From positions 1 to 37,769 of the forward strand of contig VBLC01000106.1 in NCBI GenBank assembly GCA_005879315.1: DNA of 37,769 nt, given 5' to 3'. Made by a program: the position numbers and the translations under genes. Below the pieces are notes generated by a model that ran no database searches, had not been told where the DNA came from, and saw only the letters and a program-made list of their open reading frames with translations. Below, piece after piece: positions 19,004 through 37,769 of the stretch; position 1 is the first letter of the stretch, and each line of letters begins with the position of its first letter. The DNA comes from Deltaproteobacteria bacterium. Lineage in GTDB: Bacteria > Myxococcota > Myxococcia > Myxococcales > 40CM-4-68-19.

Positions 19004-21313
19004 ATGATCTCTACGGGAATTCGTTCGTGTTTCGTCGCGCTGCTCGCGACCGCGCTCGTGCCGCACGCGCGAGATGCAAGCGCCGATGATGATGACGGGC
19101 CGCGCGGCCTGCAGATCCGGACCCTCTCGACGCACGCCGACCGTGTGAGCGGCGGTGACGTGCTGGTCGAGATCTCGCTTCCGCGAGCGCCCCGCAAGGG
19201 CGAGCTGATCGTGAGCCTCAATGGCCGCGTCGTCACCAATCCATTCCATGAAACCGCGCCAGGAAGACTGGTCGGACTGGTGACCGGCCTCTCGGACGGT
19301 AACAACCGGCTGACCGCGGAGGCGAAAGGTCTCGGCACGAGGTCGCTGCGGATCGTGAACTACCCGATCACCGGGCCGATCGTCTCCGGGTCGCAGGGGA
19401 AGGTCGGACCGCAAGAGCGGCCCTTCATCTGCCAGACCGACTCGTTCAAGCTGCCCGACGGAAGCACGCTGGGTCCCGCCACCGACACCGATTGCTCGGC
19501 GCCGACGAAAGTCACCTACGTTTACTTTTCCAAAGCCGACGCGAAATTCAAGCCCTTCGACAGCAAGACGAATCCCACCGATGTCGCGATGACCACGACC
19601 ACCGCGGGCTGGACCATGCGTTACATCGTCCGCCTCGAGACGAGCACCATCAACCGAGGCATCGCCCAGAACGCGGTGCTGCACGATCCGACGGTGGAAT
19701 CGCCACCTACGCATTTCTCGCCACCGAAGGGCTGGAACAAGAAGCTGATCGCCGTGCAGGGAGCCGGCTGTCCCGGCGGCTGGTACATCCAGGGCGCGGT
19801 GGAGGGCAACCTGAACATTCCAGGAGTGCTCCGCGCGGAAGTGCTCGACACCACGCGCCTCGGCCAAGGCTACGCCACCTTCGGCAACACGCTCCAGCAC
19901 CCGTCGAACAACTGCAATGCGCTGCTCGGCGGCGAGACCATGATGATGAGCAAGGAGCATGTCATCGAGGAGTTTGGAGTGCCCAGCGCGACACTCAGCG
20001 TCGGGTGCTCGGGCGGCTCCTACACCAGCCTGCAGTACGGCGACACCTTCCCGGGCCTCATCGACGGGGTCCTGATCGCCTGCACTTTCCCGGACGCGCT
20101 CTCGATCGCCCTCTCCGGATCGGACGGTCACCTCCTCACCCATTATTTCCTGAACACGAAATCCCCCGAGTTCACCGATGCGCAGCAAGTCGCCGTTTCG
20201 GGGTACAAGGCGACGACCGGGACGGACATCAAGAAGGCATGGTACGACGCGGCCAAGCAGTCACAGCGCACGGACCCCGTGCCGCCGGCGATCGCCGCCA
20301 TGCGCAATGGGACGGAAATGACCGGCTACAATCCGGCGGTGTGGGCGACGCCGACGGGGGTAGTCGTCCCGAGTGACAAACAGTACGTTCCGCAGAAGAA
20401 CCCGACCGGTGCTCGCCCGACGGTCTATGACGTCGCGCGCAACGTGAACGGCATCGATCCGCACACCGGATTCGCGCTCCGGCCCTTCGACAACGTCGGC
20501 GTGCAGTACGGTCTCGCGGCTCTCAACGCAGGAACGATCACGCAAGAGCAGTTCCTCGACTTGAACGAGCACATCGGCGGCTACGACCAGGACGCGAACT
20601 TCGTCGCCTCGCGGTCAGTGGGCGACCTCGGCGCGATCGAGCGCATTCAGCAGGCCGGCGTGGCCTTCGGCGGCGGCGGTGGCATGGCGAACATCCCCGT
20701 GTTCGACATCACCGGCATCTACAACGACGACTCCGGCTACCACTACCAGTGGTTCCACTTCGCGGCGCGCGAAAGGATGCGCGAGGCGAACGGCAACACT
20801 GACAACCATGTGATGTGGCGCGGCAACCCTGTCCCGTTCGAAACCGCCTGGTCCACGCTCCTGCAATGGGTCGATGCGGTGAAGGCGGACCGATCGGACG
20901 CCCCGGAGCGCGTCAAGGTGGCGCGCCACAAGCCGACCGCGGATGGCTGCTGGACGAGCCCGACGGACTTCGTCAAGGAGCCGCAGACTTTCAGCAGCCA
21001 GCCAGACTCGCGGTGCAACGCGCTGTTTCCCACGTTTGCGTTCCCGCGGTCGGTCGCCGGATCGCCGGTCAAGGCGAACGTCTACAAGTGCCACCTGAAG
21101 GCCATCGACTCGGCCGATTATGCCAAGCCGTTCACGGCCGAGGAGATGGCGCGGCTGCAGGCCGTCTTCCCCAGCGGCGTGTGCGACTACTCGCGGCGCG
21201 GCGTTGGATACCGCCGCGTCGTCACCTGGCCGTCCTTCGGACCGTCGCCGGACAATCTCGTGTTCGACGTGGCGAATCCGCATCGCCGCGCGGACGACGA
21301 CAACGACAACTGA
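19004..21313 (+). CDS. Secreted DUF6351 / tannase-like hydrolase
   Basis: A 769-residue protein with a signal peptide (SCFVALLATALVPHARDASA). A beta-sandwich-like region follows (GDVLVEISLPRAPRKGELIV), then a hydrolase core. The nucleophile elbow is G334-C-S-G-G338 (SVGCSGGSYTS, Ser336), like the GCSxGG motif of tannase/feruloyl-esterase enzymes. The layout fits DUF6351. Many Cys residues suggest disulfides and extracytoplasmic action. It has a good AAGGAGAAG ribosome site. It is the third large secreted hydrolase in the window, and a strong terminator follows. The substrate is unknown; ester hydrolysis is inferred from the fold. The C-terminus ends in an acidic Asp/Asn run. Confidence 0.8.
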   Translation: MISTGIRSCFVALLATALVPHARDASADDDDGPRGLQIRTLSTHADRVSGGDVLVEISLPRAPRKGELIVSLNGRVVTNPFHETAPGRLVGLVTGLSDGNNRLTAEAKGLGTRSLRIVNYPITGPIVSGSQGKVGPQERPFICQTDSFKLPDGSTLGPATDTDCSAPTKVTYVYFSKADAKFKPFDSKTNPTDVAMTTTTAGWTMRYIVRLETSTINRGIAQNAVLHDPTVESPPTHFSPPKGWNKKLIAVQGAGCPGGWYIQGAVEGNLNIPGVLRAEVLDTTRLGQGYATFGNTLQHPSNNCNALLGGETMMMSKEHVIEEFGVPSATLSVGCSGGSYTSLQYGDTFPGLIDGVLIACTFPDALSIALSGSDGHLLTHYFLNTKSPEFTDAQQVAVSGYKATTGTDIKKAWYDAAKQSQRTDPVPPAIAAMRNGTEMTGYNPAVWATPTGVVVPSDKQYVPQKNPTGARPTVYDVARNVNGIDPHTGFALRPFDNVGVQYGLAALNAGTITQEQFLDLNEHIGGYDQDANFVASRSVGDLGAIERIQQAGVAFGGGGGMANIPVFDITGIYNDDSGYHYQWFHFAARERMREANGNTDNHVMWRGNPVPFETAWSTLLQWVDAVKADRSDAPERVKVARHKPTADGCWTSPTDFVKEPQTFSSQPDSRCNALFPTFAFPRSVAGSPVKANVYKCHLKAIDSADYAKPFTAEEMARLQAVFPSGVCDYSRRGVGYRRVVTWPSFGPSPDNLVFDVANPHRRADDDNDN

Positions 21314-22164: not shown

Positions 22165-22294
22165 GGAGTGCCTCTTGTTCCGCCTATGGCCATCCCAAGG
22201 TTTCTTGCAAAATGCTCTTGTATCGGCCCAGAATCGCGTCGCAATTCGTTCAGGCGTTCGCCGCGTGGCAAGCAGACGGAGGCGCGTGGCTGCC

Positions 22295-24157
22295 GTGAAC
22301 TTGATCGGCTCGTACAACTACACGCTCGTGGCGCTCTCGGTGTTGATCGCCATGTTTGCGTCGTACGCTGCTCTGGATCTTGCAGGTCGCGTAACTGCCA
22401 CGGGCGGTTGGACTCGCGCGGTCTGGTTGCTGGGCGGAGCTTGTGCGATGGGGACTGGCATCTGGTCCATGCACTACATCGGGATGCTGGCGTTCGTCCT
22501 GCCGGTTCCCGTGGCGTACCACTGGCCGACCGTCCTGCTGTCGCTGGTTGCGGCCATTCTCGCTTCGGTCGTTGCGCTGGGTGTCGTCAGCCGGCAGAAA
22601 ATGGGTTGGCTCCGGGCGCTCGCCGGAAGTGTCCTGATGGGTGCGGGTATTGCAGGCATGCATTACATCGGCATGGCCGCCATGCGAATCCCTGCCATGT
22701 GTCAGTATGATTCCTTTCTCGTCGTCCTGTCCGTCGTGTTCGCGGTCCTGATCTCTCTCGCTGCGCTCTGGATTACCTTTCACTTCCGAGACGAGAAAAC
22801 GGGGACCGGCTGGGAAAAGCTAGCCGGAGCCGTCGTGATGGGCGCCGCGATCCCCGTCATGCATTACACGGGCATGGCCGCCGCCAGCTTTACTCCCTCG
22901 AGCATGCCGATGGACCTGTCTCAGGCCGTCAGCATCTCCACACTCGGCACCGGCGGAATTGCCGCCGTCACCTTCGTCGTTCTCGGGCTGGCTCTGCTGA
23001 CGTCCTCGGTCGATCGACGATCCGTTACCCAGGCCTTGGAAGTCCAGGAAGAGAAGCTGCAGCAAACCGAGGCATATCTATCGGAAGCACAGCGATTGAG
23101 CCACGCGGGCAGCTTCGGCTGGAGGGTTTCCACCGGCGACATCGTCTGGTCCGAAGAAACCTTTCGAATCTTTCAATACGACCGGACGACCAAACCGACC
23201 GTGGAGCTCATTCTCCAACGGGTTCATCCGGAAGACGCGGCCTTCGTGCAGCAGACCATCGAGCGTGCGGCGCAAGGTGGGAATGATTTTGACCATCAAT
23301 ATCGCCTGGTGATGCCGGACCGTTCCATCAAACATGTCCAGGTCGTGGCTCATGCCTTGAATGCTGCATCGGGCGGCGTCGATTTTGTTGGTACCGTGAT
23401 CGACGTCACCGAGCGCAAGCGGGCGGAGGAAGAGCGCGAGAGATTGCGCCAGGCGCATGAGGACCTCGCGCGCGTGAACCGGGTCACCACGATGGGCGAG
23501 CTGACCGCTTCGCTGGCGCACGAAGTGAATCAACCGATCGCCGCCGCCATCACCAATGCCAATGCCTGCTTGCGCTGGCTGGCGGGGGACGCCCCGAATC
23601 TCGAAGAGGCGCGCGCCGCTGCCAGGAGAATCGTGAAAGACGGAACGCGGGCGGCGGAAATCATCAGCCGGATCCGTCTGCTCTTCAAGAAGGGGACCCC
23701 AGAACGGGAGCTGGTCGAGATCAATGAAGTCATTCGAGAGATGATCGTCCTCCTGCGCAGCGAGACCACGCAATATTCCATTTCAGTCCGGACGGAGCTG
23801 ACGGCAAGACTTCCCCGGGTCCTGGGAGATCGCGTCCAATTGCAACAGGTCCTGATGAACCTCATCCTCAACGGCATCGAGGCGATGAAGGATGTGGAGG
23901 GGATGCGCGAGCTCGCTTTGAAGTCGCAGCGAACGGAAAACGAGCAACTTCTCGTGACTGTCCGCGATACGGGCAAGGGCCTTCCCCCGCAGCGGGACCA
24001 GATCTTCGATGCGTTCTTCACGACCAAGCCTCTGGGGCTCGGAATGGGGCTGTCGATCAGCCGCTCCATCGTCGAGTCGCACGGCGGCCGCTTGTGGGCT
24101 TCGGACAGCTCTCCGCGCGGCGCAACATTTTCCCTCACGCTCCCCACCAAGGTGTAA
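22295..24157 (+). CDS. MHYT-PAS sensor histidine kinase
   Basis: About 620 residues. The N-terminal MHYT sensor has seven membrane helices and three signature repeats (MHYIGM at about 59-64, a second MHYIGM and MHYTGM); such domains are proposed to bind copper and sense diatomic gases or redox state. A PAS domain follows ([18 protein letters not shown] to [13 protein letters not shown]). The HisKA box is [14 protein letters not shown] with phospho-His409, and the HATPase has [17 protein letters not shown] and [18 protein letters not shown]. The start is GTG; 22295 matches usual family starts, and a second GTG at 22286 is possible (GGAGG at 22278-22282). Eight bases after the stop lies a FixJ-like regulator, its probable partner. 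Confidence 0.93.
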
Positions 24158-25270: not shown

Positions 25271-26617
25271 ATGAGCGAGACGACTGCTCCTGTCTATGTC
25301 GTGGATGACGACGTTTCGATGCGCGAGTCCGTGGGAAGCCTGATCCGGTCAGCGGGCCTGAGGGTCGAGGCCTTCGAGTCGGCGCAGCAATTCCTCGCCA
25401 GGCCGCGAACCGAAGTGCCCAGCTGCCTGGTGCTGGATGTGCAGCTGCCGGGCCTGAGCGGCCTGGATCTGCAACAGGAGCTTGCCAGGACGGACCTCCA
25501 GATCCCCATCATCTTTCTCACCGGTCACGGCGACATCGGCATGTCGGTGCGAGCGATGAAGGCCGGCGCCCTCGAGTTCCTCACCAAGCCATTCGACGAC
25601 GAGGTGCTGCTGGGGGCAATCCGGCGGGCGATCGTCCGCCACCACAAGCGCAGGCTCGCCGCGGAGAAGGCGCTGGGCCATTCCATCGTCGGCGACGGCC
25701 CCGCCATGCGCCGGCTGCTGGAGCTGGTCTCGCGGGTCGCGCCCAAGGACATCACCCTTCTCATCCGCGGCGAGACGGGGACGGGAAAGGAGTTGATCGC
25801 CTCGCTCGTTCACGCCCAGAGCCAGCGGGCGGCGCGTCCTTTCGTACGCTTCAACTGCGCGGCGATCCCCGGAGAGCTGGCTGAGGCGGAGCTGTTCGGG
25901 CACACGCGCGGCGCGTTCACCGGCGCCGTGCAGGCGCGCCGCGGATTTTTCGCCGAGGCGGACGGAGGCACGCTCGTGCTCGACGAGGTCAGCGAGCTTT
26001 CCCTGCCCGTGCAAGCAAAGCTCTTGCGCGTGCTGCAGGAGGGCGAGATCCAGCCGGTCGGCGCAGCCCGGGTGGATCGGGTCGACGTGCGCGTGGTCGC
26101 CTGCACCAACCGCGATCTCGCCGACGAGGTGCGCGCCGGCCGCTTCCGGGAAGATCTCTACTACCGCCTCGCGGTCCTCGAGCTGCTCCTGCCGCCGCTC
26201 CGCGATCACCGCGAAGACATCCCGGCGCTCGCCGCCGAATTCGCTCGCCGCCACGCGGAGCGGTTTGGAATGCAGGACGTTCGCCTCTTGGCCGAGCTGC
26301 TCGATGCGCTCCAGCGACTGGATTGGCCGGGGAACGTCCGCCAGCTGGAGAACGCAGTCGCGCGCATCGTCGCACTCAGCAACGGCGGCGAGATCGGGCT
26401 CGAGGCCTTCGCAGCGACGACGGCCGCGTGCGCTGAAGTGCCGCCCGAGGGGGCGCTCAACTTGCGCGAACAAGTCGAGGCGGTGGAGCGCGGCCTGATC
26501 GGCCGGACGATGACGGCGGTCGGCGGCAACCAGTCGGAGGCGGCGCGCCGCCTTGGCCTGAGCCGCGGGTCTCTCATCGAGCGGCTGAAGAAGTACGGCA
26601 CGATGGTCCCGGGCTGA
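25271..26617 (+). CDS. NtrC-family sigma-54 activator response regulator
   Basis: A 448-residue protein of three parts. The receiver has D56 in LVLDVQLPG and FLTKPF. The AAA+ sigma-54 domain has Walker A GETGTGKE (167-174), the sigma-54 contact loop GAFTGA (214-219), Walker B GTLVLDE, and the arginine-rich RFREDLYYRLAV region. The Fis-type HTH near the C-terminus is GGNQSEAARRLGLSRGSL. It activates sigma-54 promoters when phosphorylated. The receiver is of FixJ type and very close to that of the regulator encoded two genes before, so the MHYT kinase may feed both. An AAGGAGAGG ribosome site precedes the ATG. Confidence 0.95.
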   Translation: MSETTAPVYVVDDDVSMRESVGSLIRSAGLRVEAFESAQQFLARPRTEVPSCLVLDVQLPGLSGLDLQQELARTDLQIPIIFLTGHGDIGMSVRAMKAGALEFLTKPFDDEVLLGAIRRAIVRHHKRRLAAEKALGHSIVGDGPAMRRLLELVSRVAPKDITLLIRGETGTGKELIASLVHAQSQRAARPFVRFNCAAIPGELAEAELFGHTRGAFTGAVQARRGFFAEADGGTLVLDEVSELSLPVQAKLLRVLQEGEIQPVGAARVDRVDVRVVACTNRDLADEVRAGRFREDLYYRLAVLELLLPPLRDHREDIPALAAEFARRHAERFGMQDVRLLAELLDALQRLDWPGNVRQLENAVARIVALSNGGEIGLEAFAATTAACAEVPPEGALNLREQVEAVERGLIGRTMTAVGGNQSEAARRLGLSRGSLIERLKKYGTMVPG

Positions 26618-28382: not shown

Positions 28383-28862
28383 ATGGCGACGCGGACGGAA
28401 GACATCATGCCGAACAACGTGCTCGAAATGCCGATCGTTGGCGATCCTGACGCAGGCGGCGGCCAGCCTCGCCGCCCCGCCCATCGACGCCGGCAATTGC
28501 GGCGCGTGGTGGCGCGGCGAAAGAAGAGCCTCGTCTTCCTCGACCCGAAGAAGATCTGGGCGTTCGAGGCGGCGGACCGCCTCACCTTCGTGCACGCGCC
28601 GGAGGGCACCTTCGCCATCGACCTGTCCCTGGCCGCGCTCGAGGCGTCGTTCGGCCGCGCGCTCTTTCGCGTGCACCGCAACTGGTTGGTGAACCTGGCC
28701 TACGTCAAGGAGCTGGAGCGCGACCTCGGAGGGGCCACGCTGACCGTAGGCAGCGAGCTCGGGGCCGAGGGGCGGAGCATCCGCGCGCCCGTTTCGCACG
28801 ACCGCGCCAAGGCCCTCCGCAACCTGCTGCTGAAGAATGCAACCGGCCTGCGCTACCTCTGA
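28383..28862 (+). CDS. LytTR DNA-binding regulator without a receiver
   Basis: About 159 residues ending in a LytTR domain: KSLVFLDPKKIWAFEAAD, RLTFVHAPEGTFAIDLSL, FRVHRNWLVNLAYVKELERD and the closing VSHDRAKALRNLL. LytTR domains bind DNA by beta strands. There is no receiver; the N-terminal 50 residues are basic and poorly conserved. The ATG at 28383 has AAAAGGTG upstream; the ATG at 28407 is an alternative. It ends one base before the cytochrome c peroxidase ATG, so it probably regulates or is co-regulated with that gene. How it receives a signal is not evident. Confidence 0.8.
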   Translation: MATRTEDIMPNNVLEMPIVGDPDAGGGQPRRPAHRRRQLRRVVARRKKSLVFLDPKKIWAFEAADRLTFVHAPEGTFAIDLSLAALEASFGRALFRVHRNWLVNLAYVKELERDLGGATLTVGSELGAEGRSIRAPVSHDRAKALRNLLLKNATGLRYL

Positions 28863-28863
28863 C

Positions 28864-30138
28864 ATGAGTCTCTCGATCCGTCTGTCGGTCGTGATGGTCG
28901 GCTTGATGGCGGTAGCAGGCGACGCGTCGGCGCCTGCGCAGCACGCCGGTCCGCCGCCCATCCCCAAGGCAGGCCCGCTCGCTCAACCGCGATCGATCAA
29001 GCAAGTGGGCTTGCCGGCCGACCAGACGCTGGCAGCCATCCCGACCGACAATCCGCAGACGCCGGAGAAGATCGCGCTCGGCCAGAAGCTCTTCTTCGAC
29101 GGCAGGCTCTCCGTCGACCGGACCGTCGCCTGCGCCACTTGTCACGATCCGCAGCGCGCGTTCACCGACGGGCGGCCGACGTCCGTCGGCGTGCAGGGTC
29201 GCAGCGGCCAGCGCAACGCGCCGACGGTGCTGAACGCGCTCTACAACAAGACGCAGTTCTGGGACGGTCGAGCGAAGACGCTCGAGGAGCAGGCGGCGCT
29301 CCCGATCGTGAATCCCGTCGAGATGGGGCAACCAGATCTCGAAGCCGCCGTCAGATCGCTCGCCGCCTACCCCGAGTACCGGCAGGCTTTCGAGAAAGCG
29401 TTCGGACGGGCCCCGAACGGCCAGGATCTTCTGCGCGCGATCGCGTCGTACGAACGCACCTTGACCTCGTTCGATTCGCCCTTCGACCGCTTCCTCGCCG
29501 GCGACGGCAAAGCGATCGACGAATCCGCCAAGCGCGGATGGGTGCTCTTCAACGACCGGGCGCGCTGCAACAAGTGCCACGCGCTCCCCGACGAGACGCC
29601 CGATCTGACCAACTTCAAGGACGACGACTTCCACAACATCGGCGTCCTCATCGTCCGGCATCGCGTGGTCCCGCTCGCGCGCAAGGCGGAGAAGCTCGTC
29701 GATTCCGGCAACGCCGTCGAGGTCGACCGGGCGGCGATCCAGTCCGACATGAGCGCGCTGGGCCGCTTTCTCGTCACCAAGAAGGAGTCCGACATCGCCT
29801 CGTTCAAGACGCCGGGCTTGCGGAACGTCCTCGTCACCGCGCCGTACTTCCACGACGGGTCGCACCAGACGCTCTGGGACGTCCTCGACCATTACAACAA
29901 GGGAGCGGGCCTCCGAGACCCATGGCTCGATCAGGACATCCAGCCGCTCGGACTTCGGGAAAATGAGCTCGACGACCTCGTCGCTTTCATGGCCTCGCTC
30001 ACCAGCGACGTCTACCAAGCGCAAGGAGCGCAAGAGCTCGCGCGCCAGCGAGCGTTGGCGAGAGCGAATCGCCCGTTCCGCGACACGCGGCGCGCATTTG
30101 GTCCGAAGCCGTCGAGAACCGACGCGGGCACGCCCTAG
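28864..30138 (+). CDS. Di-haem cytochrome c peroxidase (MauG/CcpA family)
   Basis: About 424 residues with a signal peptide (IRLSVVMVGLMAVAGDASA) and two haem c sites: CATCH (C90-C93-H94) and CNKCH (C235-C238-H239). The flanking CCP motifs are present: LGQKLFFDGRLS, RNAPTVLNALYN, FWDGRAKTLEEQA, NPVEMG and LRNVLVTAPYFHDGS. It reduces hydrogen peroxide in the periplasm with electrons from small c-type cytochromes, or modifies a protein as MauG does. The ATG is one base after the LytTR stop. A long basic tail follows the catalytic part. Confidence 0.92.
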   Translation: MSLSIRLSVVMVGLMAVAGDASAPAQHAGPPPIPKAGPLAQPRSIKQVGLPADQTLAAIPTDNPQTPEKIALGQKLFFDGRLSVDRTVACATCHDPQRAFTDGRPTSVGVQGRSGQRNAPTVLNALYNKTQFWDGRAKTLEEQAALPIVNPVEMGQPDLEAAVRSLAAYPEYRQAFEKAFGRAPNGQDLLRAIASYERTLTSFDSPFDRFLAGDGKAIDESAKRGWVLFNDRARCNKCHALPDETPDLTNFKDDDFHNIGVLIVRHRVVPLARKAEKLVDSGNAVEVDRAAIQSDMSALGRFLVTKKESDIASFKTPGLRNVLVTAPYFHDGSHQTLWDVLDHYNKGAGLRDPWLDQDIQPLGLRENELDDLVAFMASLTSDVYQAQGAQELARQRALARANRPFRDTRRAFGPKPSRTDAGTP

Positions 30139-30707: not shown

Positions 30708-31123
30708 TTACGTGTACCAGTTTCGAGCTCCGGGACCCTGATGGTCTGCAAAAGCACGGCGCTACCGAGACCATTCGCCGCACCCGGTCTGTCCGCACTC
30801 ACTGGCCCTTCGTCGCCAGGGAGCTGCTTCCGGTCGGATCGCCGCTCGCTCGGCACGTCGCCTTCCATACTCTAGGCAACCAGGAGGGGGACGATCATGC
30901 GCAAGGTGAGATACGGAAGGCGGGCTGCAGGAGGGGCTTCGCTCGTTCGCCTCGTCCGGCCCTCGAGCGAGCACGCTGATCATTCACCGACAGGGGTGTC
31001 GCAAAACCGGGCAGTTTTCGCGGCGGACTCTTCTTCGCGACACTCCAGCCAAGGCACGTCCCGAACCGGCACGGACCGTGAAAGGCCCCGTTGCTGGGGT
31101 CGATCGATCTTTGTGGAGGCGAG
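30708..31123 (+). other. Intergenic region before the formate dehydrogenase operon
   Basis: These 416 bp should contain the fdn promoter; I find no clear sigma-70 or -24/-12 sigma-54 element. A 76-codon ORF at 30897-31127 has a strong AGGAGGGGG ribosome site and overlaps the fdnG start by ATGA, but its Arg/Ser-rich product has no recognisable fold. It might be a leader peptide or chance. Confidence 0.35.
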
Positions 31124-34100
31124 ATGAAGCGGCGGATGTTCTTGAAGGGGGCGGCTGCTGCAGGCGCCGCCGTCGGAATCGGGTTCGACATGTCTCGCGC
31201 GCGCGCGGAGATGCGGCAGTTCAAGATCGCGCGCACCACCGAGACCCGAAGCATCTGCCCGTACTGCGCGGTGGCCTGCGGCGTCATCATCCACACGCTG
31301 GGCGACAAGGCGAAGAACGTCCGCCCCACGGTCGTGCATGTCGAAGGCGATCCGGATGCCCCCACCAACCGCGGCACGCTCTGCCCGAAAGGCGCGACGC
31401 TCAAGTACGACATCGACAACCCCAACCGCATTCTCACGCCCAAGGTGCGGCGGCCGGGCTCCGATCACTGGGAGGAGATCTCCTGGGACGAGGCCGTCCA
31501 GGGGATCGCGCGGCACATCAAGTCCACGCGCGACCGGACCTTCGTCGCCAAGAACGCGAAAGGCCAGACGGTGAACCGCACACCGGGCCTCGCGGTGGTC
31601 GGCGGGTGCACCGACACCAACGAGTTCAACTTCCTCCAATGGAAGTTCATCAGCGCGCTCGGGGTCGCCTACCGGGACAGCCAGGCAAGGGTTTGACACG
31701 GTCCCACGGTGGCCAGTCTGGCCGCCACGTTCGGGCGAGGCGCGATGACCAACGGCTGGGTCGACATCAAGAACGCCGACGTCATCCTGGTGATGGGCGG
31801 GAATCCCGCCGAGAACCATCCTTGCGGATTCAAGTGGACGGTGGAGGCGAAGCGGACTCGCAACGCGAAGCTGGTGGTGGTGGATCCGCGATTCACCCGC
31901 ACGGCATCGGTCGCGGATGTCTACGCGCCGATCCGGCCGGGAACGGACATCGCCTTCCTCAACGGCCTCATCCGCTACGCGCTCCAGACCGGCCGCTACC
32001 ACGAGGAGTACGTCCGCATCCATACTTCCGGCCCGTACATCGTCGGCGACAAGTACGCCTTCGAGGACGGCCTCTTCTCGGGATTCGATCCAGCGCAGGC
32101 GGAGTACGACAAGTCGGCCTGGGCTTATCGCGCCGATCCGAAGACCAAGGCCTACCAGGTCGATCCGACCATGAAGCACCCCCGCTGCACCCTGCAGCTG
32201 CTCAAGAAGCACGTCGAGCGGTACACGCCGGAGATGGTGGAAAGGATCTGCGGCACTCCGAAAGACCAGTTCCTCAAGGTCGCCGAAGTGGTCACCTCGA
32301 CCGGGAACGCGCAGCGGGTGGGCACCATCACCTACGCGCTGGGCTGGACACAGCATTCGGTCGGCGTTCAGATGATCCGCGCCGCGGCCACACTGCAGCT
32401 CTTGCTGGGCAACGTCGGCCGGCCGGGCGGCGGCGTGAACGCGATGCGCGGCCATTCCAACATCCAGGGTTCGACCGACCTCGCCGGCGTGTTCGACAAT
32501 CTGACCGGCTACCTGGCGACGCCCCGCGGCGAGTTGACTGATCTGAAGACCTACCTCAAAGCCGAGACGCCGACGACCCTCAATGGAGCGCCGTGGCCGA
32601 CCATGAACTACTGGTCGAACTATCCGAAGTTCATGGTGAGCTTGCTCAAGGAGCTCTACGGAGACGCAGCCACCAAGGAGAACGACTGGGGCTATCAGTG
32701 GCTGGCGAAGGTCGATGGCAACTATTCCTGGCTCTACATCTATGACGACATGTATCGGGGCAGCTCGCAGCGGGCGGGCGGCACCGAGCCTGGTCCGGAA
32801 GGCCTCCTCACTTTCGGTTTCAACCCCGTAGGCGTCGGCCCCAATACCTCGAAGATCATCAACGCGCTGTCGAAGTTGAAGTTCCTGGTGGTCGGCGACA
32901 ACTACCAGATCGAGACGGCGACCTTCTGGAAGGCGCCCAAGGAGTACGGCGGGCCCGACTCCTCGCAGATCAAGACCGAGGTGTTCCAGCTTCCCTGCTC
33001 CGGCTTCGCCGAGACGGACGGCAGCTTCACCAACTCTGCCCGCTGGCTGCAATGGAAGTGGAAGGCGCTCGATCCTCCGGGGCAGGCGAAGACGGACCAG
33101 GAAGTCCTCGCGCGCATCTTCCTGGCGGTCCGCGATCTCTATCGGAAGGAAGGCGGCGCGCTGCCCGAGCAGGTGCTGAACGTCTCCTGGAACTACACCG
33201 ACCCGGTCAATCCTGACCTGGGCGAGGTGCTCAAGGAGATCAACGGCAAGGCCGTCACCGACCTGAAGGACAAGGACGGCAAGGTGATCAAGCGCGCCGG
33301 CCAGCAGCTCGACGGCTTCTCGCAACTACAAGACGACGGCTCGACGAGCTGCGGCTGCTGGATCCATTCGGGCGTCTACACCGAGGCGGGCAACAACGCC
33401 GCGCGCAGAGGCACGCAGGATCCCACGGGCCTGGGCATGCATCCCGACTGGGCCTTCTCCTGGCCGGCGAACCGGCGCATCCTCTACAACCGCGCCTCGG
33501 CGGATGCGCAGGGCAGGCCGTGGGACCCGACCCGCCCAGGTATCGCCTGGAACGGGAAGCTCTGGGTCGGCGACGTGCCCGACATCCTGCCCAACTCGCC
33601 GCCGGGCCAGTACGGCGCGTTCATCATGAATCCCGAAGGCGTCGGACGCCTCTTCACGCCCTCGCTGAACGACGGGCCCTTCGCCGAGCACTACGAGGCG
33701 ACCGAGGCAGCGATCGAGAATCCGCTCCACCCGAAGGTCACCTCGAGCCCGGTGACCGTCCGGTTCCATTCCAACAAGGACGTCTACGGCACGCGCGATC
33801 AATTCCCCGTGGTCTGTACCACCTATCGCTTGACCGAGATGTACCATTACTGGACCCACCACACGAACGAGCTGAATCAATTGCAGCCCGGGTTTTTCAT
33901 CGAGATCCCGGAAGAGCTCGCTCGGGAAAAAGGGATCACCAACGGCTCGCGGGCGAGGGTCACCTCGGCGCGCGGCTCCATCGAGGGAGTCGCCATGGTG
34001 ACCAGGCGCCTCCGGCAGCTGACTATCGACGGCAAACGGGTGTGGCACATCGGATTCCCGCTGCACTGGGGCTACGAAGGCGATCCGAAGCACGTCGGGC

Positions 34101-34195
34101 CGCTCGCCAACTTCCTCACGCCCTCGGCGATGGATCCGAACACCTGGACGCCTGAGTTCAAGACCTTCCTCGTCCGGCTCGAGAAAGCGTCATGA
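31124..34195 (+). CDS. fdnG: Formate dehydrogenase alpha subunit, selenocysteine-containing
   Basis: A 1,023-residue molybdopterin (bis-MGD) enzyme that oxidises formate to CO2. The frame crosses a TGA at 31694-31696 read as selenocysteine, residue 191. The context QARV-Sec-HGPTVASL equals that of E. coli FdnG, and the following sequence GRGAMTNGWVDIKNADVI continues it exactly. The N-terminus is a Tat signal (KRRMFLKGAAAAG). A [4Fe-4S] site is formed by C45, C48, C52 and C87. The GARGT-like C-terminal cofactor-binding domain ends near LVRLEKAS. It is exported folded and works on the periplasmic face. It is followed by the Fe-S and cytochrome b subunits with ATGA overlaps. selA, selB, selC and fdhD/fdhE are not in the window. 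Confidence 0.95.
31697..31740 (+). promoter_or_regulatory. Bacterial SECIS element
   Basis: Immediately after the TGA, a hairpin forms with stem GGTGGCC (31708-31714) and GGCCGCC (31720-31726) around the loop AGTCT (31715-31719), one G-T pair included. The position and the AGUCU loop agree with the fdnG/fdhF SECIS, which recruits SelB with selenocysteyl-tRNA. Confidence 0.82.
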
Positions 34196-35076
34196 CCGCC
34201 GACGGGCTGGAGATCCGGCAGTCGTCCGCCAGCGTCTGGGGCTCGGCGACGGAGCTTCGCAACCTCAAGGTGGTCTCGAAGCTCATCGACACCACCACCT
34301 GCATCGGCTGCAAGGCGTGCGAGGTGGCCTGCCAGGAGTGGAACGATCTGCACATCGTGCCCACCACTCAGACGGGCACTTACCAGACGATGCCGAGCCT
34401 CGACGCGAACTACTGGAACCTGATCAAGTTCCGCGAGGTCGAGGAGAGCGGCTTCTTCGCCTGGCTCTTGCGCAAGGATGGCTGCATGCACTGCGCCGAT
34501 CCGGGCTGCCTCAAGGCCTGCCCGGCGCCCGGCGCGATCGTGCAGTACCAGAACGGCATCGTCGACGTGAATCCGGAAGCGTGCATCGGCTGCAAGATGT
34601 GCGAGACCGGCTGTCCCTTCGACATCCCGCGCTACTCGGCGAAGACCGACAAGATGGCGAAGTGCACCTTGTGCGTCGACCGCGTGCAGGTCGGCCTGGA
34701 GCCTGCCTGCGTCAAGGCCTGCCCAACCGGTTGCCTTGAGTTCGGCGACAAGGCGGAGCTGGTGGCGGTCGCCAAGGCGCGCGTCGAGCAGCTCAAGCAG
34801 AACGGCTTCACCCAGGCGGCGCTCTACGATCCGCCGGGCGTGGGCGGGACGACCGTGATCACGGTGCTCGCGCACGGCGATCATCCCGAGTGGTACGGCC
34901 TGCCGAAGGACCCTCAGGTGCCCGTCGCGGTGAGCCTCTGGAAGAACGTCGCCCGGCCGCTGGCGGCGCTTGCCATCGCCGGCTCCTTTTTCGCCATGGT
35001 GGCGCACTACCTCTCTTTTGGCCCGAAGACGCCGAAGGAAGGCGCGGAGAAGCCGAAAGGAGACAAGCCGGCATGA
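34192..35076 (+). CDS. fdnH: Formate dehydrogenase beta (iron-sulfur) subunit
   Basis: A 294-residue electron-transfer subunit with four Cys clusters for [4Fe-4S] centres: CIGCKACEVACQEW, CMHCADPGCLKACP, CIGCKMCETGCPFDIPR and CTLCVDRVQVGLEPACVKACP. A single C-terminal membrane helix (LAALAIAGSFFAMVAHYL, about residues 248-265) anchors it, as in FdnH. It passes electrons from the alpha subunit to the cytochrome b subunit. Its ATG overlaps the alpha-subunit stop (ATGA), and its own stop overlaps the next ATG. Confidence 0.95.
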   Translation: MTADGLEIRQSSASVWGSATELRNLKVVSKLIDTTTCIGCKACEVACQEWNDLHIVPTTQTGTYQTMPSLDANYWNLIKFREVEESGFFAWLLRKDGCMHCADPGCLKACPAPGAIVQYQNGIVDVNPEACIGCKMCETGCPFDIPRYSAKTDKMAKCTLCVDRVQVGLEPACVKACPTGCLEFGDKAELVAVAKARVEQLKQNGFTQAALYDPPGVGGTTVITVLAHGDHPEWYGLPKDPQVPVAVSLWKNVARPLAALAIAGSFFAMVAHYLSFGPKTPKEGAEKPKGDKPA

Positions 35077-35789
35077 GATCGATCCCGGTTGCGGATCAGA
35101 GAAGCGGGAGCGGCATGGGCGACGCCGCGATGGCGCGCGCCCGCAGCACCGAGGACGTGGTGGTGGGCGACGAGATCGTCCGCGAACGGCTCTCGGCGCG
35201 CGTGGTGCATTGGATCGTGGCGCTGACCTTCTTCGTCTGCCTCTTCACCGGGTTGCCCATCTGGACGCCTTATCTCGGCTTCCTCGCGCATTTGTTCGGC
35301 GGCTTGCACGTCTGCCGCATCCTCCACCCTTGGGCGGGCGTCGCCTTCGCGGTCGCCTCGGTCTTCATGTTCGTGCAGTGGGTTTCGCAGATGAAGCTCA
35401 CCAAGGCCGATCGCGAATTCATCACGCCCAAGGGCATGCTTCGATACTTCCAGTACCGCAACGAAGACGCCGACGTCGGCAAGTACAACGGCGGCCAGAA
35501 GCTGCTCTTCTGGGCCGCGGCGCTGGGCACGGTTGGACTGCTCATCACCGGCCTGGTGATCTGGTTTCCGCTCGAGTTCCCCCAGTGGGTGCGGGAAGCG
35601 AGCTACCTCTTGCACGACGCCGCCTTCAGCCTCTTCTTCGCGATGATCATCGGCCACATCTACCTGGGGACCGCCGCCGAGCCGGGCACCTTCCGCTCGA
35701 TGATCCGCGGGACGGTGACGAAGAGCTGGGCGCGCCTGCACCACCCGCGCTGGTACCGCGAAGTCACCGGCGAGAAGGCGGGGGGCTGA
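35073..35789 (+). CDS. fdnI: Formate dehydrogenase gamma (cytochrome b) subunit
   Basis: A 238-residue membrane protein with four helices (VVHWIVALTFFVCLFTGLPI, HPWAGVAFAVASVFMFVQW, LLFWAAALGTVGLLITGLVI, AAFSLFFAMIIGHIYLGT). Histidines for two b haems are His46 (VHWIV), HVCRILHPWAG, HDAAFSL and GHIYLG. It takes electrons from the Fe-S subunit and reduces quinone. The ATG at 35073 is coupled to the beta subunit by ATGA. The N-terminal 30 residues are longer than in E. coli FdnI and Ala/Arg-rich, and METs at residues 15 and 20 are alternative starts. Confidence 0.93.
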   Translation: MRSIPVADQRSGSGMGDAAMARARSTEDVVVGDEIVRERLSARVVHWIVALTFFVCLFTGLPIWTPYLGFLAHLFGGLHVCRILHPWAGVAFAVASVFMFVQWVSQMKLTKADREFITPKGMLRYFQYRNEDADVGKYNGGQKLLFWAAALGTVGLLITGLVIWFPLEFPQWVREASYLLHDAAFSLFFAMIIGHIYLGTAAEPGTFRSMIRGTVTKSWARLHHPRWYREVTGEKAGG

Positions 35790-35793
35790 GTAA

Positions 35794-37769
35794 ATGTGGA
35801 TCGTCCGTCTCGCCCTTCGCCGGCCGTACACCTTCATCGTCCTGGCGATGCTCATCGTCCTGATGGGCGTGACGACCGTCCTGCGCATGCCGGCCGACAT
35901 GTTCCCGCAGATCAACATCCCCGTCGTCGCCGCCATCTGGTCGTATACAGGCCTTCCTCCGCTGGAGATGGAAGGCCGCATCACTTCGCAATTCGAGCGC
36001 GCCGCGACGACGACCGTGAGCGGGATCGAGCACATCGAGAGCCAGTCGCTCGCCGGCGTGGCCGTGGTGAAGGTCTACATGCAGCCCGGCACCTCGATGG
36101 CATCCGCGGTCGCGCAGGTCTCGGCCGTCTCGCAGCCCATCCTCCGGCAATTGCCGCCGGGCGCGATTCCGCCGCTGGTCATGGCGTACAGCGCCTCCAA
36201 CGTGCCGATCCTCCAGCTCGGCTTGTCGAGCCCCACCCTCAGCGAGCAGGAGATCTTCGACCTCGGGACGAACTTCCTGCGGACCGGCCTGGCGACCGTG
36301 CAGGGGGCGCAACTCCCCTTGCCCGTCGGAGGCAAGGTGCGCGAGATCGTCGTCGACCTCGATCCGCAGAAGCTCTTCGCCTGGGGGCTTTCCCCGGCGG
36401 ACATCTCCACGGCGGTGAACACGCAGAACGTCATCCTGCCCAGCGGGACGGCGAAGATGGGAGCGCTGGAGTACCCGATCGTCTTCAACGGAAGCCCATC
36501 GGTCGTCGACGGCCTCAACTACCTTCCCCTCAAGAAGATCAACGGATCGATCGTCCACCTGCGCGACGTGGCGCACGTGCGCGACGGCTACATGCCGCAG
36601 ACGAGCCTGGTCCTGACCAACGGGATGCGCGGCGCGCTGCAACCCATCCTCAGCGCCGAGGGGGCCAGCACGCTGAGCGTCGTTGCGGGGGTGCGCGCGG
36701 CGCTGCCGCAAGTGCAGGCGACCTTGCCGCCGCAGCTCGAGGTCAAGCCTCTCTTCGACCAGTCGATCTTCGTCAAGGGAGCCATCACCGGAGTGGTGCG
36801 CGAGGCCATCATCGCCGCCGGGCTCACCGGCATCATGATGCTGCTCTTCCTCGGGAGCTGGCGCTCGACGGTGATCGTGCTGATCTCGATCCCGCTCTCG
36901 CTGCTGGTCTCGATCATCGCGCTCGACCAACTGGGACAGACGCTCAATTCGATGACGCTGGGCGGGATGGCGCTCGCCGTCGGCATCCTGGTCGACGATG
37001 CCACCGTCACCCTGGAGAACTACCATCTGCAGCGCAGCATGAAGAAACCGCTCGGCCGGGCCATCCTCGACGGCGCAGCCGAGATCGCCGTGCCGACGCT
37101 GGTGTCGACGCTCTGCATCTGCATCGTCTTCATTCCGGTGACGCTCATCTCCGGCGCGGCGCGCTCGCTCTTCATCCCGCTGGCGATGGCGGTTGTCTTC
37201 GCCATGCTCACCTCGTATTTCCTCTCGCGCACGCTGGTTCCCACGCTCATCCGCTACCTGCTGGGAAAGGAAGAGCATGGCGGCAGCCGCGGTCCGATCG
37301 CCTGGTTGAGCGCCCGCGTCGAGCGAGGCTTCGAGCGGATGCGCGGCGCCTACGGCCGCGCGCTCCAGGGCGCCCTCCACCATCGCAAGGTCTTCATCGT
37401 CGCCTTCGCCGCCTTCGTGATCGTCTCGCTCTGCTTCGTTCCCCTGCTCGGGCGGGACTTCTTCCCCACCGTCGACGCCGGCCAGATGCGGCTCCACGTG
37501 CGCGCGGCCCCCGGGACACGGCTCGAGGAAACGCAGCGCCTGTTCGGAGCGGTGGAGGAGCGCGTTCGCAAGATCGTCCCGGCCGACGAGCTGGACGTGA
37601 TCATCGACAACATCGGCGTCCCGGTCAGCGGGATCAACCTGACGCTCGGCGATCCGTCGATGATCTCCAGCGCGGATGGCGAGATGTTGATCTCGCTGAA
37701 GGCCAAGCACCATCCCACCGCCGAGTACGTGCGCGCGCTGCGCCATGACTTCAGCTCGGCCTTCCCGCA
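35794..37769 (+). CDS. RND-family efflux transporter (3' end outside window)
   Basis: The frame is open from the ATG at 35794 to the end of the window, 658 codons. It starts WIVRLALRRPYTFIVLAMLIV as in AcrB/MdtB-type inner-membrane pumps, with LRMPADMFPQINIPVV, then the porter domain (LPVGGKVREIVVDLD) and TM helices including VGILVDDATVTLEN, the acidic TM4 motif for proton transfer. The second half begins near LLGRDFFPTVDAGQMRLHVRA. It exports drugs or other small molecules using the proton gradient. It lies 4 bp after fdnI with a GGGGGG ribosome site and could share that transcript. The membrane-fusion partner is not seen. Confidence 0.93.
   Translation, partial: MWIVRLALRRPYTFIVLAMLIVLMGVTTVLRMPADMFPQINIPVVAAIWSYTGLPPLEMEGRITSQFERAATTTVSGIEHIESQSLAGVAVVKVYMQPGTSMASAVAQVSAVSQPILRQLPPGAIPPLVMAYSASNVPILQLGLSSPTLSEQEIFDLGTNFLRTGLATVQGAQLPLPVGGKVREIVVDLDPQKLFAWGLSPADISTAVNTQNVILPSGTAKMGALEYPIVFNGSPSVVDGLNYLPLKKINGSIVHLRDVAHVRDGYMPQTSLVLTNGMRGALQPILSAEGASTLSVVAGVRAALPQVQATLPPQLEVKPLFDQSIFVKGAITGVVREAIIAAGLTGIMMLLFLGSWRSTVIVLISIPLSLLVSIIALDQLGQTLNSMTLGGMALAVGILVDDATVTLENYHLQRSMKKPLGRAILDGAAEIAVPTLVSTLCICIVFIPVTLISGAARSLFIPLAMAVVFAMLTSYFLSRTLVPTLIRYLLGKEEHGGSRGPIAWLSARVERGFERMRGAYGRALQGALHHRKVFIVAFAAFVIVSLCFVPLLGRDFFPTVDAGQMRLHVRAAPGTRLEETQRLFGAVEERVRKIVPADELDVIIDNIGVPVSGINLTLGDPSMISSADGEMLISLKAKHHPTAEYVRALRHDFSSAFP

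Follow-up and report, generated by a model that had tools for sequence, protein, structure and literature searches.

An in-frame TGA in a formate dehydrogenase-N gene of a Deltaproteobacteria bacterium is very probably a selenocysteine codon

In a 37,769-nucleotide stretch of DNA from a Deltaproteobacteria bacterium (contig VBLC01000106.1; the whole stretch is referred to as the window), a formate dehydrogenase frame is interrupted by a TGA, raising the question of whether this codon ends the protein or is read as selenocysteine (Sec). Translation with TGA as U yielded 1023 residues with a single internal TGA and a terminal TGA at 34193–34195, agreeing to the base with the initial annotation, in which the frame was described as open from 31124 to 34195 except at 31694–31696. 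A GGAGG is present 5' of the ATG, and the residues flanking codon 191 are DSQARV-U-HGPTVASLAATFGRG.

31124–34195, + strand: fdnG, formate dehydrogenase-N alpha subunit, with one TGA predicted to be read through as Sec (TIGR01553; phmmer match to 1kqf_A)
31694–31696, + strand: in-frame TGA, predicted Sec codon (codon and residue 191; translation, homologue codons and 1kqf alignment)

The stake for genome annotation is that automatic calling would cut fdnG into two pieces, as had been anticipated; the mechanical ORF caller indeed breaks the gene into 31091–31696 and 31709–34195.

The read-through protein matched TIGR01553 with 1351.2 bits (cut-off, 814.2) over residues 2–1021, on both sides of the TGA, and contained Fe4S4, molybdopterin and dinucleotide-binding Pfam domains. 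A phmmer alignment with E. coli FdnG (1kqf_A) covered the protein from end to end, bearing out the assignment to FdnG-type formate dehydrogenases, and placed residue 191 opposite a modified residue printed as X, the known selenocysteine of the E. coli protein; the proposed match between the flanks of the TGA and the FdnG Sec site was thereby sustained. The in-frame UGA lies at the active-site position and is followed by HGP, fitting the motif U-H-x-P, and a recent review tabulates TIGR01553 with the motif UHxP (PMC13188914). The N-terminus, MKRRMFLKGAAAAGAAVGIGF (MKRRMFLKG, then hydrophobic residues), is similar by eye to a Tat signal.

The region beginning at the TGA was compared with covariance models and folded.

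31691–31749, + strand: bacterial SECIS, Rfam RF01989 SECIS_3 (the formate-dehydrogenase SECIS), 63.5 bits, E = 1.1e-12
31708–31726, + strand: apical hairpin of the SECIS (minimum-energy fold and covariation)

The score exceeds the gathering score of 63 by a narrow margin. SECIS_3 was over the cut-off in E. coli only among 14 control genomes, and in each of the seven same-genus genomes. Together, the TIGR01553 match across the TGA and the E value of SECIS_3 place the observation beyond chance. In the minimum-energy fold, 31708–31715 pairs with 31719–31726 to give an 8-bp stem capped by a loop of three bases, starting 11 bases past the TGA, where a SECIS-like hairpin had been noted before. Its folding energy was ordinary for the composition (z = -0.30) and by itself gives no support, so the evidence for the SECIS consists of the family-model match and comparison, not energy. 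Across 20 diverse homologues, two pairs of the hairpin were changed on both sides, giving 15 such cells where shuffles averaged 6.8, and the covariation score was 0.217 against 0.057 in shuffles and dropped when the partners were slid, a signal partly confounded by coding constraint and with one pair broken in half of the rows.

The species collection supplied 80 homologous loci. A motif search allowing any residue before HGPTV caught 76 of them and missed four, and in every homologue holding the motif the codon preceding HGPTV is TGA (76/76). The closest homologues belong to metagenome bins from soil that carry the names Deltaproteobacteria and Myxococcales, so that a Myxococcota-like soil bacterium is the probable source of the window. 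Against the four closest, dN/dS was 0.11–0.15 before the TGA and 0.11–0.24 after it, and in the two homologues compared, third positions carry most of the differences after the TGA. Purifying selection is comparable in the two parts of the gene, and these values, together with the third-position bias, indicate that the downstream part is made as protein in that frame and kept under selection. We therefore regard as virtually nil the chance that an error in sequencing or assembly has turned a Cys codon into this TGA, or that a decaying gene has acquired it as a nonsense mutation: the same codon recurs in the 76 homologues and in a second copy in the genome, the SECIS model matches, and the frame is conserved after codon 191. 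The sequencing error that the initial annotation had raised as a caveat is excluded for practical purposes.

The beta and gamma subunit genes adjoin fdnG, and their families, TIGR01582 and TIGR01583, both score over the cut-off.

34192–35076, + strand: fdnH, formate dehydrogenase beta (iron-sulfur) subunit (TIGR01582, 380 bits against a cut-off of 334.7; PF09163 transmembrane anchor)
35073–35789, + strand: fdnI, formate dehydrogenase gamma (cytochrome b) subunit (TIGR01583, 161 bits against a cut-off of 115.9; PF01292; start codon assigned from the sequence)

Each of these genes overlaps its predecessor by 4 bases, the start of fdnH lying inside the stop codon of fdnG and that of fdnI inside the stop codon of fdnH. 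An RND efflux permease gene (35794–37767; PF00873, 417 bits) directly follows fdnI and is cut by the window end; the listed frames at 35796–37748 (+) and 35764–37746 (-) are shadows of this gene. Upstream of the operon, 28837–30138 encodes a MauG/MbnH-like di-haem enzyme (PF03150; TIGR04039 at 239 bits, below its cut-off of 363). Elsewhere in the window are a DUF6351 tannase-like protein (19004–21313, 713 bits) and an MHYT-domain histidine kinase (22175–24157), followed by a sigma-54-dependent response regulator (25271–26617).

The genome assembly (4.43 Mb in 125 contigs, estimated to be 97.6% complete) was searched for the selenium machinery, and selA (485.8 bits to TIGR00474), selB (656 aa, 300 bits against a cut-off of 242) and selD (375 bits; L018:1141–2502, - strand, contig C78) were found. 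selD is itself a selenoprotein gene, with an in-frame TGA in HGSG-U-ACK, where SelD proteins are known to carry Sec. Contig C101 (L022) holds a second fdnG, with the Sec codon and a SECIS_3 of 72.7 bits; fdnH, fdnI and an fdhE-like frame come after it. The expectation that SelA, SelB, SelC and SelD are all encoded elsewhere in the genome was therefore borne out for three of them, whereas selC, the gene for tRNA-Sec, was not found in the 125-contig assembly by the Rfam model, ARAGORN on candidate loci, sequence patterns or DNA similarity.

The first look with the Rfam model scored only 150 of 650 candidates, and the eight best model matches with loci proved to be ordinary tRNAs by ARAGORN. Neither the pattern CTTCAAA...GGTTCRANTCC nor the relatives' selC anticodon arm with three mismatches allowed revealed a selC in the assembly, and a DNA comparison with the selC region of a relative did no better. 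The pattern GGGTTTGAAGNCC likewise found none, a result that carries no weight since the relatives' own selC would not match it. An 86-base match on contig C103 to DNA beside a relative's selC was rejected as a dispersed repeat without a tRNA. In two relatives this conserved element of about 86 bases (GGAGACAGTTTGGAGACGCCCGCGGAAGGCTCACTAACACT) immediately follows selC; other copies are scattered, in the present genome without a tRNA, and it may represent a small mobile element or an attachment site. Its copies are as follows.

L121:4053–4138: copy of the ~86-base element
L122:1030–1114: copy of the ~86-base element
L122:5641–5725: copy of the ~86-base element
L123:2934–2990: copy of the ~86-base element

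Within the genus, four of seven genomes encode a tRNA-SeC with the anticodon tca (UCA), so the missing selC is best explained by an assembly gap. In two selC-bearing relatives, a gene about 3–4.4 kb from selC (L123:7515–8000 and L124:1–412) corresponds to bases 25–507 of contig C58 here; the assembly therefore breaks off in the direction in which selC should lie. On contig C91, the homologue (54% protein identity) of a different gene neighbouring selC was set aside, being possibly a paralogue and lacking the relatives' next gene after it, and the gap argument accordingly rests on C58 only. A gap is the likeliest reason for the missing selC. Of the two genes whose absence had been named as a ground for doubt, selB is present, and selC is missing from the assembly for what is most likely this reason.

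Should selC instead be truly lost, fdnG would be a selenoprotein gene by descent that is nonfunctional here and ends at codon 190. The failure of the covariance model, ARAGORN on candidate loci and the patterns to find selC in a genome estimated to be 97.6% complete speaks for this reading, but we consider it very unlikely, given that selA, selB, a SelD with its own in-frame TGA and two SECIS-bearing fdnG genes have all been kept, that selection after the TGA is about as strong as before it, that selC occurs in four of seven same-genus genomes, and that the gene near selC in relatives sits at a contig edge here. That the canonical selC was lost or replaced, and that a divergent tRNA, missed by the Rfam model and the patterns, decodes the UGA of fdnG and selD, is exceedingly unlikely. 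The probability that the TGA is decoded as another amino acid, through genome-wide recoding or a suppressor tRNA, is close to negligible; nothing favours it beyond selC being unseen in the assembly, and against it fdnG terminates with TGA at 34193–34195, inside which fdnH starts, showing TGA to be a terminator as well, and the SECIS and sel genes are present.

As judged from sequence, 31124–35789 is thus very probably an fdnGHI operon for a membrane-bound, Tat-exported formate dehydrogenase of the E. coli FDH-N/O type with Sec at FdnG residue 191. This selenoprotein reading draws on the frame and its TGA, the SECIS_3 and TIGR01553 matches, the 1kqf alignment, the TGA in 76/76 homologues, dN/dS and covariation, as well as on selA, selB, selD, the second SECIS-bearing fdnG, the same-genus tRNA-SeC(tca) and the genus-wide SECIS_3; the selC missing from the assembly, the SECIS_3 score barely over the gathering score and the fold of no unusual stability count against it. 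We infer Sec insertion, expression, export and electron flow on this basis: during translation of fdnG, SelB with Sec-tRNA(Sec) would bind the hairpin immediately 3' of the 31694 UGA, the ribosome would put selenocysteine at residue 191 as the ligand of the Mo/W-bis-MGD cofactor, and formate electrons would reach the quinone pool by way of the iron-sulfur clusters of FdnH and the cytochrome b of FdnI.

The initial reading is correct and the operon is ordinary, with nothing new about it; E. coli FdnG is known to read its TGA as Sec. With E. coli formate dehydrogenase-N (FdnGHI; 1kqf) the operon shares three subunits and their order, an aligned Sec, the UHGPTVASL motif and the Rfam family of the SECIS. 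About half of the protein is identical (tblastn gave 52% to E. coli records, which could be those of either FdnG or FdoG), and no functional difference was seen. The second fdnG operon shares with the window copy the Sec codon, SECIS_3 and the succession of fdnH and fdnI, at about 70–75% protein identity, whereas 3' of the fdn genes it has the fdhE-like gene and the window operon the RND permease gene. Among bacterial selenoproteins, FdhA is the most widespread (PMC1794560; repeated in PMC13188914), and the fdnG described here adds one more Sec-containing formate dehydrogenase to that family. Anaeromyxobacter dehalogenans, with three FdhA and one SelD selenoprotein (PMC1794560, table 3), resembles the present genome in combining Sec-containing FdhA with Sec-containing SelD, a likeness drawn from that published listing.
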